64,000 nucleotides of DNA from the NCBI GenBank assembly GCA_902554765.1, contig CACDPY010000001.1, forward strand, positions 84,113 to 148,112, in the 5' to 3' direction. The DNA is from an uncultured Pelagibacteraceae bacterium. Lineage in GTDB: Bacteria > Pseudomonadota > Alphaproteobacteria > Pelagibacterales > Pelagibacteraceae. Made by a program: the position numbers and the translations under genes. This document shows positions 4,898 through 47,981 of this stretch, piece after piece (position 1 is the first letter of the stretch; each line of letters begins with the position of its first letter). Below the pieces are notes generated by a model. That model did no database searches. It had not been told where the DNA came from and saw nothing but the letters and a program-made list of their open reading frames with translations.

Positions 4898-5203
4898 ATG
4901 GCCAAACTTAGCTCAATTAATAAAAATAATAGAAGAATTCGACTTTCAGATAAATTTTATAAAAAAAGGGAAAAACTTAAGAAAATAATTATGAACAAAA
5001 GCCTCCCTTTAGAGGAAAGATTTAAAGCCCAACAAAAATTGTCTAAACTTCCACGAAATTCGGCAAAAACTAGAGTAATGAATAGATGTCAAATCACTGG
5101 AAGACCCCATGGTGTTTATAGAAAATTAAAGATATCCAGAATTGCATTAAGACAATTAGGATTGCAAGGAAAGATACCTGGTTTAGTTAAATCAAGTTGG
5201 TAG
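4898..5203 (+). CDS. rpsN: 30S ribosomal protein S14 (zinc-less type)
   Basis: NRCQITGRPHGVYRKLKISRIALRQLGLQGKIPGLVKSSW. Confidence 0.97.
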   Translation: MAKLSSINKNNRRIRLSDKFYKKREKLKKIIMNKSLPLEERFKAQQKLSKLPRNSAKTRVMNRCQITGRPHGVYRKLKISRIALRQLGLQGKIPGLVKSSW

Positions 5204-5213
5204 AAAGGAAATT

Positions 5214-5609
5214 ATGAGTTTAAGTGACCCAATAGGAGATATGATTGCTAGAGTTAAGAATGCTCAATCTAGAAATCATAAAAAAGTAGAATTACCATCA
5301 TCAAATTTTAAATCAAAAATTGCTGATATTCTAAAAAATGAGGGTTTTATAAAAGATTTTAAAGTTAATTCCGAAAATAACAAATCAATCCTATCTCTAG
5401 AATTAAAATATCATTCTGGTAATCCTGTAATAAGTGCTTTCGAGCGCGTATCAAAACCTGGAAGAAGAATTTTTTCAAGTGCTGATGGCTTACCTAAAAT
5501 TAATAATGGCTTAGGTATTGCTATAATATCAACACCAAAAGGTGTAATGACTGATATAGATGCTAGAAAACAAAGAGTTGGTGGCGAAATAATTTGTAAG
5601 GTGTTTTAA
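5214..5609 (+). CDS. rpsH: 30S ribosomal protein S8
   Basis: SDPIGDMIARVKNAQ..., GLGIAIISTPKGVMTD. Confidence 0.98.
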   Translation: MSLSDPIGDMIARVKNAQSRNHKKVELPSSNFKSKIADILKNEGFIKDFKVNSENNKSILSLELKYHSGNPVISAFERVSKPGRRIFSSADGLPKINNGLGIAIISTPKGVMTDIDARKQRVGGEIICKVF

Positions 5610-6149
5610 ATGTCTAAAATAGGAAAAATAAACATTTCAATTCCAGAAAAAGTGAAAGTTGCTTTAGCTGGGAATATTTTAAATATAGAAGGTCCTCAAG
5701 GAAAAAAATCTTTGAATATTGATTTAGATGTTTTTAATTTAGATATTAAAGATGGGAAAGAAATATCAATTAAACCAAAAAAAATAGATCAAAATACAAA
5801 AAGATTATGGGGAATGAATAGAAGTTTAATTAATAACGCTGTAATTGGATCAAGTTCAGGTTATGAAAAAATTTTAGAATTAGTGGGTGTTGGTTATAGA
5901 GCCGCTTTGAAGGGCAACCAATTAAATTTACAGTTAGGATATAGCCATGATATCAATTTTGATATTCCAGAGGGAATAAAGATTGTTGTCGAAAAACAAA
6001 CAACCTTAAAAATTTCTGGTTTTGATAAACAACAAGTTGGATCTATTGTATCAAAGATTAAAACTTTAAGAAAAATTGAACCTTACAAAGGCAAAGGCAT
6101 CAGAGAAAAAGGTCAATATGTCCTTAAAAAAGAAGGAAAGAAAAAATAA
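5610..6149 (+). CDS. rplF: 50S ribosomal protein L6
   Basis: [23 protein letters not shown]..., [16 protein letters not shown]-like C-terminus. Confidence 0.97.
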
Positions 6150-6505
6150 TGAAACTTAATACTAGTATTAGAAAAAAATTCAGAGTAAGTAATAAAGTTA
6201 AAAGATCAGCACCAAAAGATAGATTAAGACTATCTATTTCAAGATCTTCAAAAAACATCTCAGCTCAAATCATTGATGATAGTAAAAATTTAACATTATT
6301 ATCTGCTTCCTCAGTGGAAAAAGATATAAAATCTGGCACAAAAGTGAATAAATCAGAACTATCAAAAATTGTAGCAGAAAAACTAGCAAAAAAAGCCCAA
6401 GAAAAAAAAATTACAAAAATTTTTTTTGATAGAGGTACATACAAATATCACGGCAGAATAAAGATTTTTGCCGAAACACTTAGAAAAAATGGAATGGAAT
6501 TTTAA
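6149..6505 (+). CDS. rplR: 50S ribosomal protein L18
   Basis: [20 protein letters not shown]..., [26 protein letters not shown]. Confidence 0.96.
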
Positions 6506-6507
6506 AT

Positions 6508-7023
6508 ATGGATGAAAGAGCAGATAAAAAGAAAGACGATATTTTAGAAAAATTAGTTCATATTAATCGTATTACTAAAGTGGTTAAAGGTGGACGAAGA
6601 TTTGGTTTTTCGGCATTAGTTGTTGTAGGAAACCAGGCTGGTAAAATAGGCATAGCTCATGCAAAAGCAAAACAAGTTCCTGATGCAATAAAGAAAGCTA
6701 ACGAAATGGCAAGAAGAAAATTAATTCATATACCTTTAAGAGAAGGAAGAACAATTCATCATGATGTTAAAGCTAAAGATGGTTCTGGTAAAATTGTGCT
6801 TAGAGCAGCATCAAAAGGAACAGGTATTATAGCAGGTGGTCCTGTAAGAGCTGTTTGTGAAGTCTTAGGAGTAAAAGATATAGTTGCTAAATCAATGGGT
6901 ACATCAAATGCACATAATGTAATTCGAGCAACAATGAAGGCATTACTTAAACAAAGCTCTCCAAAACAAATTTCAGTTATAAGAAATAAAAAGATTTCTG
7001 AGGTAATAGAAAAAAGAGGATAA
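6508..7023 (+). CDS. rpsE: 30S ribosomal protein S5
   Basis: [46 protein letters not shown]. Confidence 0.98.
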
Positions 7024-42507: not shown

Positions 42508-44253
42508 ATGTTAAATTCAGAGGACTTAATAAATAAGGTTAAAGTTTATAATAAATTTTTAAATCCTGAAAAATTAAATAAAGCTTATAATTTTGCTGTA
42601 AAAGCTCATAGTAACCAAAAAAGAGCTTCTGGTGATCCTTATTCTGTTCATCCAATTGAAGTTGCTAATATACTAACCGAATTAAAATTAGACAGCGCAA
42701 CAATAACTACTGGTTTATTGCATGACACTATAGAAGATACATATGCTACATATGAAACAATTAAAGGCGAATTTGGCGATGAAGTTGCTGATTTGGTTGA
42801 TGGTGTTACAAAAATATCAGTTTTAGAAAATACAGCTTCATCTAATTCAAAAGCTGAAAATTTTAGAAAATTAATTTTAGCTACGTCAAAAGATATAAGA
42901 GTGTTGCTAGTAAAAATTGCTGATCGATTACATAATATGAGAACTATCAAAGCAATTACAAACGAAGAAAAAAGAAAAAGAATAGCCCAAGAAACCATGG
43001 AAATATATGCCCCGTTAGCAAATCGAATGGGTATGCATAGAATTAGAGATGAACTAGAAGACCTTTCTTTTGAAATTTTAAATAATGAAGCTAGAAAACT
43101 AATTCAAAAAAGACTTGATCAAATTAAATCTGACAAGAAAGATATTTTTGAAAGTTTATCTAATGAATTTGATATTCTTCTAAAAGAAAATAATATTAAT
43201 TCAAAAATTTATGGAAGAGAAAAAACTCCTTTTTCTATTTGGCGTAAAGTACAAAAAAAAAGAGTTTCCCTAGAACAGATTACAGACATTATTGGTTTTA
43301 GAATTATTTTAAAAAATATCGATGAATGCTATAAAACTTTAGGAATTATTCATAAAAAGTATAATTGTATTCCAGGTAAATTTAAGGATTATATATCTTC
43401 AGCTAAAATAAATGGATATAAATCAATTCACACAGCAGTAATTGGATCAAATAAAAAACCAATAGAAATTCAAATTAGAACAAATGAAATGCACGAGTTC
43501 GCTGAAAGAGGAATTGCATCACACTGGCAATATAAATCCTCGGAAAAGTTTAATTCACTGACATGGAAAGAATATGACTGGCTTAAAGATTTAGTTGAAA
43601 TAATTGAAAAGAACGAAAATCCTGAACATTCCTATGAATACACTAAACTACAAATGTTTCAGGAAAATGTTTTTTGTTTCACACCAAAAGGTTCAGTGAT
43701 AAAATTACCAAAAGATGCTACTCCCATAGACTTTGCTTATGCTGTACACACTAAAATTGGAGATAATGCCACTGGTTGTGAAATTAATGGTAATAAAAGT
43801 GAGCTACAAACAATTTTAAGAAATGGTGACAGGGTAAAAATTATAACTTCTAAAAATCAATCACCATCACTACATTGGATACCTATTACCAAAACTGGAA
43901 AAGCAAGAGCTGCTATAAGAAGATATTGGCATGATAGAGGTGAAAAAAAACAAGAGAGAATAAAAAAATACAATACTACTCTGTGGATTTCTTTACCAGA
44001 TAAACCTGGTCAATTAGGGAACGTAAGTTCATTAATTGGTAAACATAAGTTAAATATATCAAATCTTGAAATGGCAGGTAAAAATCCCAATTATATTAAT
44101 TTTAAATTCCAATTAATAATACGAGATCTAAAAAATTTTACTAATTTTATTGCAGAGCTTAAGCAAAAGAGTATAAAATTTAAAATAATTAGACACGAAG
44201 ATAAAAGAAATGCTTTCACCCAAAAAATCCTTAAATATTTTAAGAAAAACTAG
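42508..44253 (+). CDS. RelA/SpoT homologue (HD + synthetase + TGS + ACT), 581 aa, shortened
   Basis: HD motif LLHDTIEDT; synthetase INGYKSIHTAV and EIQIRT; TGS FCFTPKGSVIKLPKDATPIDFAYAVHT; ACT LWISLPDKPGQLGNVSSLIG. Confidence 0.93.
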   Translation: MLNSEDLINKVKVYNKFLNPEKLNKAYNFAVKAHSNQKRASGDPYSVHPIEVANILTELKLDSATITTGLLHDTIEDTYATYETIKGEFGDEVADLVDGVTKISVLENTASSNSKAENFRKLILATSKDIRVLLVKIADRLHNMRTIKAITNEEKRKRIAQETMEIYAPLANRMGMHRIRDELEDLSFEILNNEARKLIQKRLDQIKSDKKDIFESLSNEFDILLKENNINSKIYGREKTPFSIWRKVQKKRVSLEQITDIIGFRIILKNIDECYKTLGIIHKKYNCIPGKFKDYISSAKINGYKSIHTAVIGSNKKPIEIQIRTNEMHEFAERGIASHWQYKSSEKFNSLTWKEYDWLKDLVEIIEKNENPEHSYEYTKLQMFQENVFCFTPKGSVIKLPKDATPIDFAYAVHTKIGDNATGCEINGNKSELQTILRNGDRVKIITSKNQSPSLHWIPITKTGKARAAIRRYWHDRGEKKQERIKKYNTTLWISLPDKPGQLGNVSSLIGKHKLNISNLEMAGKNPNYINFKFQLIIRDLKNFTNFIAELKQKSIKFKIIRHEDKRNAFTQKILKYFKKN

Positions 44254-46636: not shown

Positions 46637-47298
46637 TGAAAATTGATTATCAAATCTTAGAAAAAAAAATTAAAATAAAATTTAAAAATAAAGATTTACT
46701 AATCAAATCATTAACACACAAAAGCTTTAATAAAGAAAATAATAATGAAAAAATAGAATTTTTAGGAGATCGTGTTCTAGGTTTAGTTATAGCAAAGAAA
46801 CTTTTGGAGATTTATCCTGATGAAAAAGAAGGAATTTTAGATAAAAAATTTGCCTCTCTTGTAAATAAAAAAACATGCTTAGAAATTGCAAAAAAACTTG
46901 AGTTGCAAAAATTTATATTAACATTCAACTTATCTTATAAAACTAAAATAATTGAAGATAAAGTCTTAGCAGATAGTTGTGAGGCATTACTAGGAGCTAT
47001 ATATTTAGATAAAGGATTTAATATTGTTGAAAAAATAATATTAGATTTATGGTCTGTACAAATCAAACAAAGTGTCATTACCCAAATAGATGCGAAGACT
47101 AAATTACAAGAATTTTCATTAAAAAAATTTAAAAAATTACCAACCTATAAGATTATTTCAAATACAGGACCTAGGCATAAACCCCTTTTTAAAGTTGCAG
47201 TCAAACTTGATAATACAAAATTTTTTATATCAAAGGGTAAATCAAAAAAAGAGGCAGAACAAAATGCCGCTGAACTTTGTTTAAATAATATAAAGTAG
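46636..47298 (+). CDS. rnc: Ribonuclease III
   Basis: NEKIEFLGDRVLGLVIAK; ADSCEALLGAIYLDKG; C-terminal dsRBD. Confidence 0.96.
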   Translation: MKIDYQILEKKIKIKFKNKDLLIKSLTHKSFNKENNNEKIEFLGDRVLGLVIAKKLLEIYPDEKEGILDKKFASLVNKKTCLEIAKKLELQKFILTFNLSYKTKIIEDKVLADSCEALLGAIYLDKGFNIVEKIILDLWSVQIKQSVITQIDAKTKLQEFSLKKFKKLPTYKIISNTGPRHKPLFKVAVKLDNTKFFISKGKSKKEAEQNAAELCLNNIK

Positions 47299-47300
47299 AT

Positions 47301-47981
47301 ATGATTTGGGATGATATCGGATTTTTACTTTCTAAAAACAAGTATAATGAAAATTCCTTAATATCAGAATCTTACACAAAAGATCATGGCAAAGTTACAG
47401 GTATAATATTTGGAGGAACGTCTAGAAAAATTAAAAATTATTTACAAATTGGTAATAAGGTTTATCTAAATTATCAATCTAAATCTGAAAACAAGATTGG
47501 TTTTTTTAAAGTTGAAATAGAACAGGCACTATCTCCATTATATTTTGATAATCAGCAAAAATTATCTTGCATTAACTCTGCAATGAATTTGATAAAAATT
47601 TTGACTGCCGATTTTCAAAAAAATGAGAAAATTTTTAAATTAATTGAGGATTTTTATCAAATTTTACGATCTGATCATTGGATTAAAAATTATGTTTTAT
47701 GGGAATTAGAACTATTTAAACTTTTAGGCTATAATCTTGTTTTTGAAAACGTCGTAGAAAAAAAAATTATTGGGGATCGTACTCAATATATATCAAAATC
47801 ATTGACTGATAAAAAAATAATTCCAAATTTTCTTATAAATCAAAACAATGAGCCAATAGATTTAGAAACTTTATTAAATGGATTAAGGATAGTAAGCGAT
47901 TTTTTAGATAAAACTATTTTAAAACCAAATAATCTTACTCAACCATTAAGTAGATTACAGTTTATAAATACATTAAAATAA
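47301..47981 (+). CDS. recO: DNA repair protein RecO
   Basis: N-term GFLLSKNKYNENSLISESYTKDHGKVTGIIFGG; position after rnc. Confidence 0.85.
   Translation: MIWDDIGFLLSKNKYNENSLISESYTKDHGKVTGIIFGGTSRKIKNYLQIGNKVYLNYQSKSENKIGFFKVEIEQALSPLYFDNQQKLSCINSAMNLIKILTADFQKNEKIFKLIEDFYQILRSDHWIKNYVLWELELFKLLGYNLVFENVVEKKIIGDRTQYISKSLTDKKIIPNFLINQNNEPIDLETLLNGLRIVSDFLDKTILKPNNLTQPLSRLQFINTLK

Follow-up and report, generated by a model that had tools for sequence, protein, structure and literature searches.

A family-wide shortened RSH enzyme without the zinc-finger domain and most of the helical domain in Pelagibacteraceae (SAR11)

Sequence analysis demonstrated that the RSH gene of the window (the whole stretch of DNA analysed, 64,000 nucleotides from an uncultured Pelagibacteraceae bacterium) encodes a (p)ppGpp enzyme that retains hydrolase, synthetase, TGS and ACT domains and lacks the zinc-finger/CC domain and most of the helical domain, a form that is fixed across the family. 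Its probable role is that of a bifunctional ppGpp homeostat of the SpoT type, activated by the ribosome weakly or not at all and tuned through its TGS and ACT domains. SAR11 ranks among the most abundant bacteria and, according to a review, is without growth control of ribosome synthesis (PMC11102524), for which a sole, family-wide RSH without zinc-finger and helical modules offers a molecular reason.

Domain architecture and the missing segment

The gene and its parts are located in the window as follows:

42508..44253, plus strand: shortened bifunctional long RSH (Rel/SpoT orthologue), 581 aa, ATG start
42583..43035, plus strand: (p)ppGpp hydrolase (HD) domain, residues 26-176, Pfam HD_4
43213..43545, plus strand: (p)ppGpp synthetase domain, residues 236-346, Pfam RelA_SpoT
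43672..43848, plus strand: TGS domain, residues 389-447, Pfam TGS
43897..43953, plus strand: helical-domain remnant, a single helix, residues 464-482, from alignment and AlphaFold
43945..43971, plus strand: junction from which about 140 residues are missing, namely the remainder of the helical domain together with the zinc-finger/CC domain; residues ~480-488
43963..44190, plus strand: ACT/RRM domain, residues 486-561, Pfam ACT_4 at 486-553
44191..44250, plus strand: basic C-terminal tail, residues 562-581, its 3' part overlapping the start of pyrE

All four Pfam families (HD_4, RelA_SpoT, TGS and ACT_4) were found above their cut-offs, NCBIfam TIGR00691 (spoT_relA) was matched with 583 bits against a cut-off of 499, the match ending at model position 460 of 687, and the closest solved structures were long RSH enzymes, with B. 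subtilis Rel first. The protein has the HD and RelA_SpoT synthetase domains followed by TGS that characterize a long RSH, as well as its C-terminal ACT/RRM domain (Pfam ACT_4, and an ACT fold in the model), but not the helical and CC/zinc-finger domains that lie between TGS and ACT. It does not belong to the SAS/SAH proteins, which hold a single catalytic domain, since both catalytic domains are present. The initial annotation had taken both catalytic domains to be intact and had recognized TGS and ACT, which was borne out by the Pfam matches and by the invariant catalytic residues described below.

By Pfam borders, TGS and ACT lie 38 residues apart (about 40), against about 180 in full-length relatives; the short spacer noticed in the initial annotation is therefore real, and its estimated length of about 50 residues was too high. 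When the short protein was aligned by MAFFT to full-length RSHs from the sister family and from other alphaproteobacteria, a kind of comparison proposed at the outset, one clean gap appeared in it. The gap starts inside the helical domain's first helix, where KARAAIRRYW... is retained, and ends at the first ACT strand, which confirms the missing domains. The approximately 140 absent residues comprise the remaining helical domain and the entire zinc-finger/CC domain, including the CC block. Structure prediction agreed: AlphaFold gave one helix (464-482) and then ACT (488-561) in the short RSH, whereas the full-length sister protein had four helices (466-539), a zinc-finger region (562-621) made of strands and a short helix, and then ACT (630-704). 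In these models pTM is low and the relative domain placement is of low confidence.

The missing segment was not relocated to another gene. Indeed, a 150-aa query covering it had no match, in cis or in trans, in 46 of 46 Pelagibacteraceae genomes, whereas it was found in all 12 sister-family genomes, and a separate helical/zinc-finger gene elsewhere in the genome was thereby rejected. The early claim that the helical and zinc-finger/CC domains are gone thus holds for the gene and for the genome, except that part of the first helix remains. The related claim, that the enzyme is stripped of its ribosome- and autoregulation-linked modules, was correct for the helical and zinc-finger domains only; TGS and ACT/RRM, both of them ribosome-contacting in RelA/Rel, are kept, and the enzyme is accordingly one without two of the four C-terminal modules, not one without all of them.

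The 3' end of the RSH gene and the start of pyrE overlap by 44 bases in another frame (44210-44253). In the last 25 RSH codons dS is about 0.2-0.6, far below that of the rest of the gene, as expected of a doubly coding stretch. The basic C-terminal tail is shorter or absent in genera g2-g4.

Distribution, conservation and origin

The short form was found throughout the family. All 80 Pelagibacteraceae loci fetched from named records matched across the whole 581 residues, and in a survey of the window's order 99 of the 101 Pelagibacteraceae genomes with a match had a complete short ORF, the two exceptions (G098 and G133) being fragments; the length survey called for in the initial annotation thus gave a consistent answer. 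The RSH frames are 570-603 aa in Pelagibacteraceae (proteins of 566-586 aa after re-reading of the starts) and 708-723 aa in the sister family of the same order (proteins of 707-712 aa), in keeping with the contrast first drawn between 581 aa and the 700 or more of canonical proteins. Outside Pelagibacteraceae, nearly all of the RSHs among the matches listed in the class and phylum surveys were about 690 aa or longer, the shorter ones being those of G290 (655 aa), G239 (526 aa, in a frame that ends at the contig end) and a few others. Furthermore, among the matches listed for 386 genomes of the class, a probe made of TGS, junction and ACT matched end to end in Pelagibacteraceae only; elsewhere the match stopped by residue 137 of 169, mostly at 87-102. 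In three other alphaproteobacteria (G167, G289 and G754) the RSH frames are only 487-516 aa, which may reflect a frameshift, a gene split in two or the end of a contig. The giant ORF of G226 proved to be a run of masked N.

Both active sites keep their catalytic residues in the 112 unique Pelagibacteraceae sequences compared. In brief, (i) the hydrolase residues H48, H72, D73, D139 and N143 are invariant, (ii) the synthetase residues R237, K239, K247, D260, D294, Y304, E320, Q322 and R324 are invariant, the roles of both sets being assigned from established RSH structures, (iii) the [K/R]FKD motif of the bifunctional type is retained in the family, as KFKD in the RSH of the window, and (iv) TGS H414 is invariant. 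This last residue corresponds to E. coli RelA H432 and B. subtilis H420, the TGS histidine by which ribosome-activated Rel/RelA enzymes contact the CCA end of the tRNA (PMC7058999). Its retention does not decide ribosome sensing, because SpoT-type enzymes may keep it as well. Pairwise dN/dS in ACT, where dS could be estimated, was 0.004-0.04, as low as in the catalytic domains.

The genome of the window is a draft (39 contigs, 71% complete), on which grounds the missing residues might be put down to sequencing or assembly, or the gene taken for a pseudogene. This explanation was rejected and can be given virtually no credence: the same architecture recurs in the 80 named records and in genomes closed as a single contig, the residues listed above are invariant, and purifying selection acts throughout the gene. 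The sequencing deletion that the initial annotation had kept in mind as a counter-argument fails likewise, the short form being fixed across the family.

In a tree of the shared N-terminal part, all short RSHs fall in one clade (100/100 in the group test), which adjoins the full-length sister family (98/99), and the gene order dapA-smpB-folK-RSH-pyrE-pdxJ-acpS-lepB-rnc-recO is common to both families. The short RSH is orthologous to the full-length alphaproteobacterial Rel on both counts. About 140 residues were lost once, in the ancestor of Pelagibacteraceae, and the short gene was then inherited vertically; its horizontal gain was rejected by the tree and the gene order.

Genomic surroundings and divergence of the ACT domain

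The RSH carries the sole synthetase domain in the genomes searched, and a second synthetase taking over ribosome sensing was thereby rejected. Both the RNA polymerase omega subunit and a zinc-finger protein of the DksA type occur across the clade, so that ppGpp can be read by its usual targets and a loss of the RNA-polymerase read-out was rejected. In the window, rpoZ does not adjoin the RSH gene and is encoded elsewhere; the window's own incomplete genome gave no match for the DksA-type protein. Weak matches restricted to the hydrolase region were also observed in a few genomes of the order, in short frames of 154-231 aa (G146:C1:854614-854886; G053:C14:3481-3921; G063:C10:13436-13876); these may be either small alarmone hydrolases or HD proteins of another kind.

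The SpoT of Caulobacter is under the control of EIIANtr~P, and EIIANtr inhibits its hydrolase (PMC4848567), the protein binding to the RRM/ACT domain (PMC13376610). No EIIANtr-type protein (PTS_EIIA_2) was found over the cut-off in any of 58 genomes of the window's order, whereas the Caulobacter positive control was detected. The SAR11 enzyme therefore stands apart from EIIANtr-regulated alphaproteobacterial Rel, whose genomes encode EIIANtr, and control by EIIANtr through ACT was rejected on this result for the order.

A further observation concerns Era, a nearly universal GTPase of 16S rRNA maturation. In the sister family, Era (TIGR00436) was found over the cut-off, in the rnc-era-recO interval, in each genome searched; within Pelagibacteraceae it was found there in genera g2-g4, and in no genome of genera g1 (that of the window), g5 and g6; in the window, the interval from rnc to the recO-like ORF (47298-47301) leaves no room for it. 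Era seems to have been lost in the part of SAR11 formed by genera g1, g5 and g6.

The ACT domain has a mean identity to other alphaproteobacteria of 24% in Pelagibacteraceae against 38% in the full-length sister family, and 6 of 12 ACT columns conserved in alphaproteobacteria are changed against 2 of 12 in the sister family, small numbers in both cases. The hydrolase, synthetase and TGS domains and the first helix are similarly close to other alphaproteobacteria in the short and sister families. Judged from these comparisons, ACT is diverged from the alphaproteobacterial pattern yet under strong purifying selection. Within it, N516 is invariant in Pelagibacteraceae and aligns with B. subtilis Rel N685, the register of which was checked against C602/C603 in the solved chain. 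N685 is the counterpart of R. capsulatus N651, which amino-acid binding reportedly requires, and in B. subtilis Rel amino-acid binding does not imply regulation (PMC7058999).

Predicted regulation and known relatives

In RelA/Rel, the A-site finger is contacted by the zinc finger and ACT/RRM, and the starved ribosome complex by TGS and ACT/RRM; zinc-finger mutations weaken ribosome recruitment, and a Rel lacking both RRM and ZFD is a weakly active, non-toxic synthetase (PMC7058999). The hydrolysis-ready state is supported when the C-terminal region docks on the catalytic half (PMC13376610). The SAR11 RSH has no zinc-finger domain with which to contact the A-site finger, and it is from these published zinc-finger, RRM and C-terminal-docking results that we infer a homeostat with weak or no ribosome activation; loss of this activation is likely. 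Without the zinc finger, the enzyme would bind starved ribosomes weakly or not at all, and the basal ppGpp level would be set, as in SpoT-type enzymes, by the balance of the two active sites. Docking of TGS and ACT on the catalytic half, or an ACT ligand such as an amino acid, may shift that balance, which would give graded homeostasis instead of an all-or-none stringent response. A stronger version is more tentative and somewhat doubtful: the ppGpp metabolism of Pelagibacteraceae might be wholly without ribosome sensing, the re-tuned ACT of the sole RSH, adjoining TGS and without EIIANtr, directly sensing an amino acid or another small molecule.

The main rival to the homeostat, which appears unlikely, is residual ribosome sensing via TGS and ACT. 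The TGS would still read deacylated tRNA, and ACT, tethered near TGS by one helix, would reach the A-site finger, the lost domains being dispensable. The TGS histidine and ACT are indeed kept and strongly constrained, and B. subtilis Rel retains some ribosome-dependent activity when RRM is absent or when the zinc finger carries point mutations; as C602A/C603A leaves some activity in place, the short RSH could keep a degree of ribosome activation (PMC7058999). However, joint removal of RRM and ZFD leaves Rel non-toxic and weakly active, and among the retained domains it is ACT, a contact of the A-site finger in RelA, that alone departs from the alphaproteobacterial pattern.

It is still less probable that the RSH acts chiefly as a hydrolase, or as an enzyme of low and nearly constitutive activity, a relic of streamlining with little regulation. 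SAR11 is reported to have streamlined genomes and to express its genes mostly constitutively (PMC11102524), and other long RSHs depend for their control on a docked C-terminal region (PMC13376610), both of which would suit such a relic; however, all synthetase residues are invariant, and the constraint on ACT and TGS, equal to that on the catalytic domains, would not be expected of domains without a regulatory job.

The SpoT-like homeostat proposed here has an architecture that is not itself new. An internal deletion of the helical and CC domains with ACT kept was described by Atkinson et al. in 2011 in the SpoTs of Haemophilus ducreyi and Actinobacillus pleuropneumoniae and called a rare exception (PMC3153485), and the SAR11 enzyme has the same type of deletion in another lineage. 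Compared by published description, these Pasteurellaceae SpoTs belong to two gammaproteobacterial species, whereas the SAR11 form is family-wide, of separate origin and the sole RSH. Relatives of the two species usually also carry RelA. An internal RSH deletion in SAR11 was not found described in the open-licence literature, largely titles and abstracts, and as far as that literature shows the family-wide fixation, the independent origin and the sole-RSH status are new.

Other long RSHs can be compared. Full-length alphaproteobacterial Rel/SpoT proteins, such as Caulobacter SpoT and the sister-family protein L160, share locus, catalytic residues, TGS and ACT with the SAR11 form; unlike it, they are at least 708 aa long, with helical and zinc-finger domains. 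B. subtilis RshC-type proteins, RshC being placed in Bacilli by Atkinson, and Salinispora RshA are likewise natural long RSHs with C-terminal modules lost (PMC3153485), but they also lose ACT, which the SAR11 form keeps. The short RSH is a natural experiment on which modules of a long RSH are needed for regulation apart from the ribosome, and the full-length enzyme of the sister family provides its matched control. Finally, the 655-aa RSH of another alphaproteobacterium (L170, G290, 4964-6928, minus strand) has lost the zinc finger and kept ACT, like the SAR11 enzyme, but retains most of the helical domain; its long branch, far from SAR11 in the tree, points to an independent partial loss.
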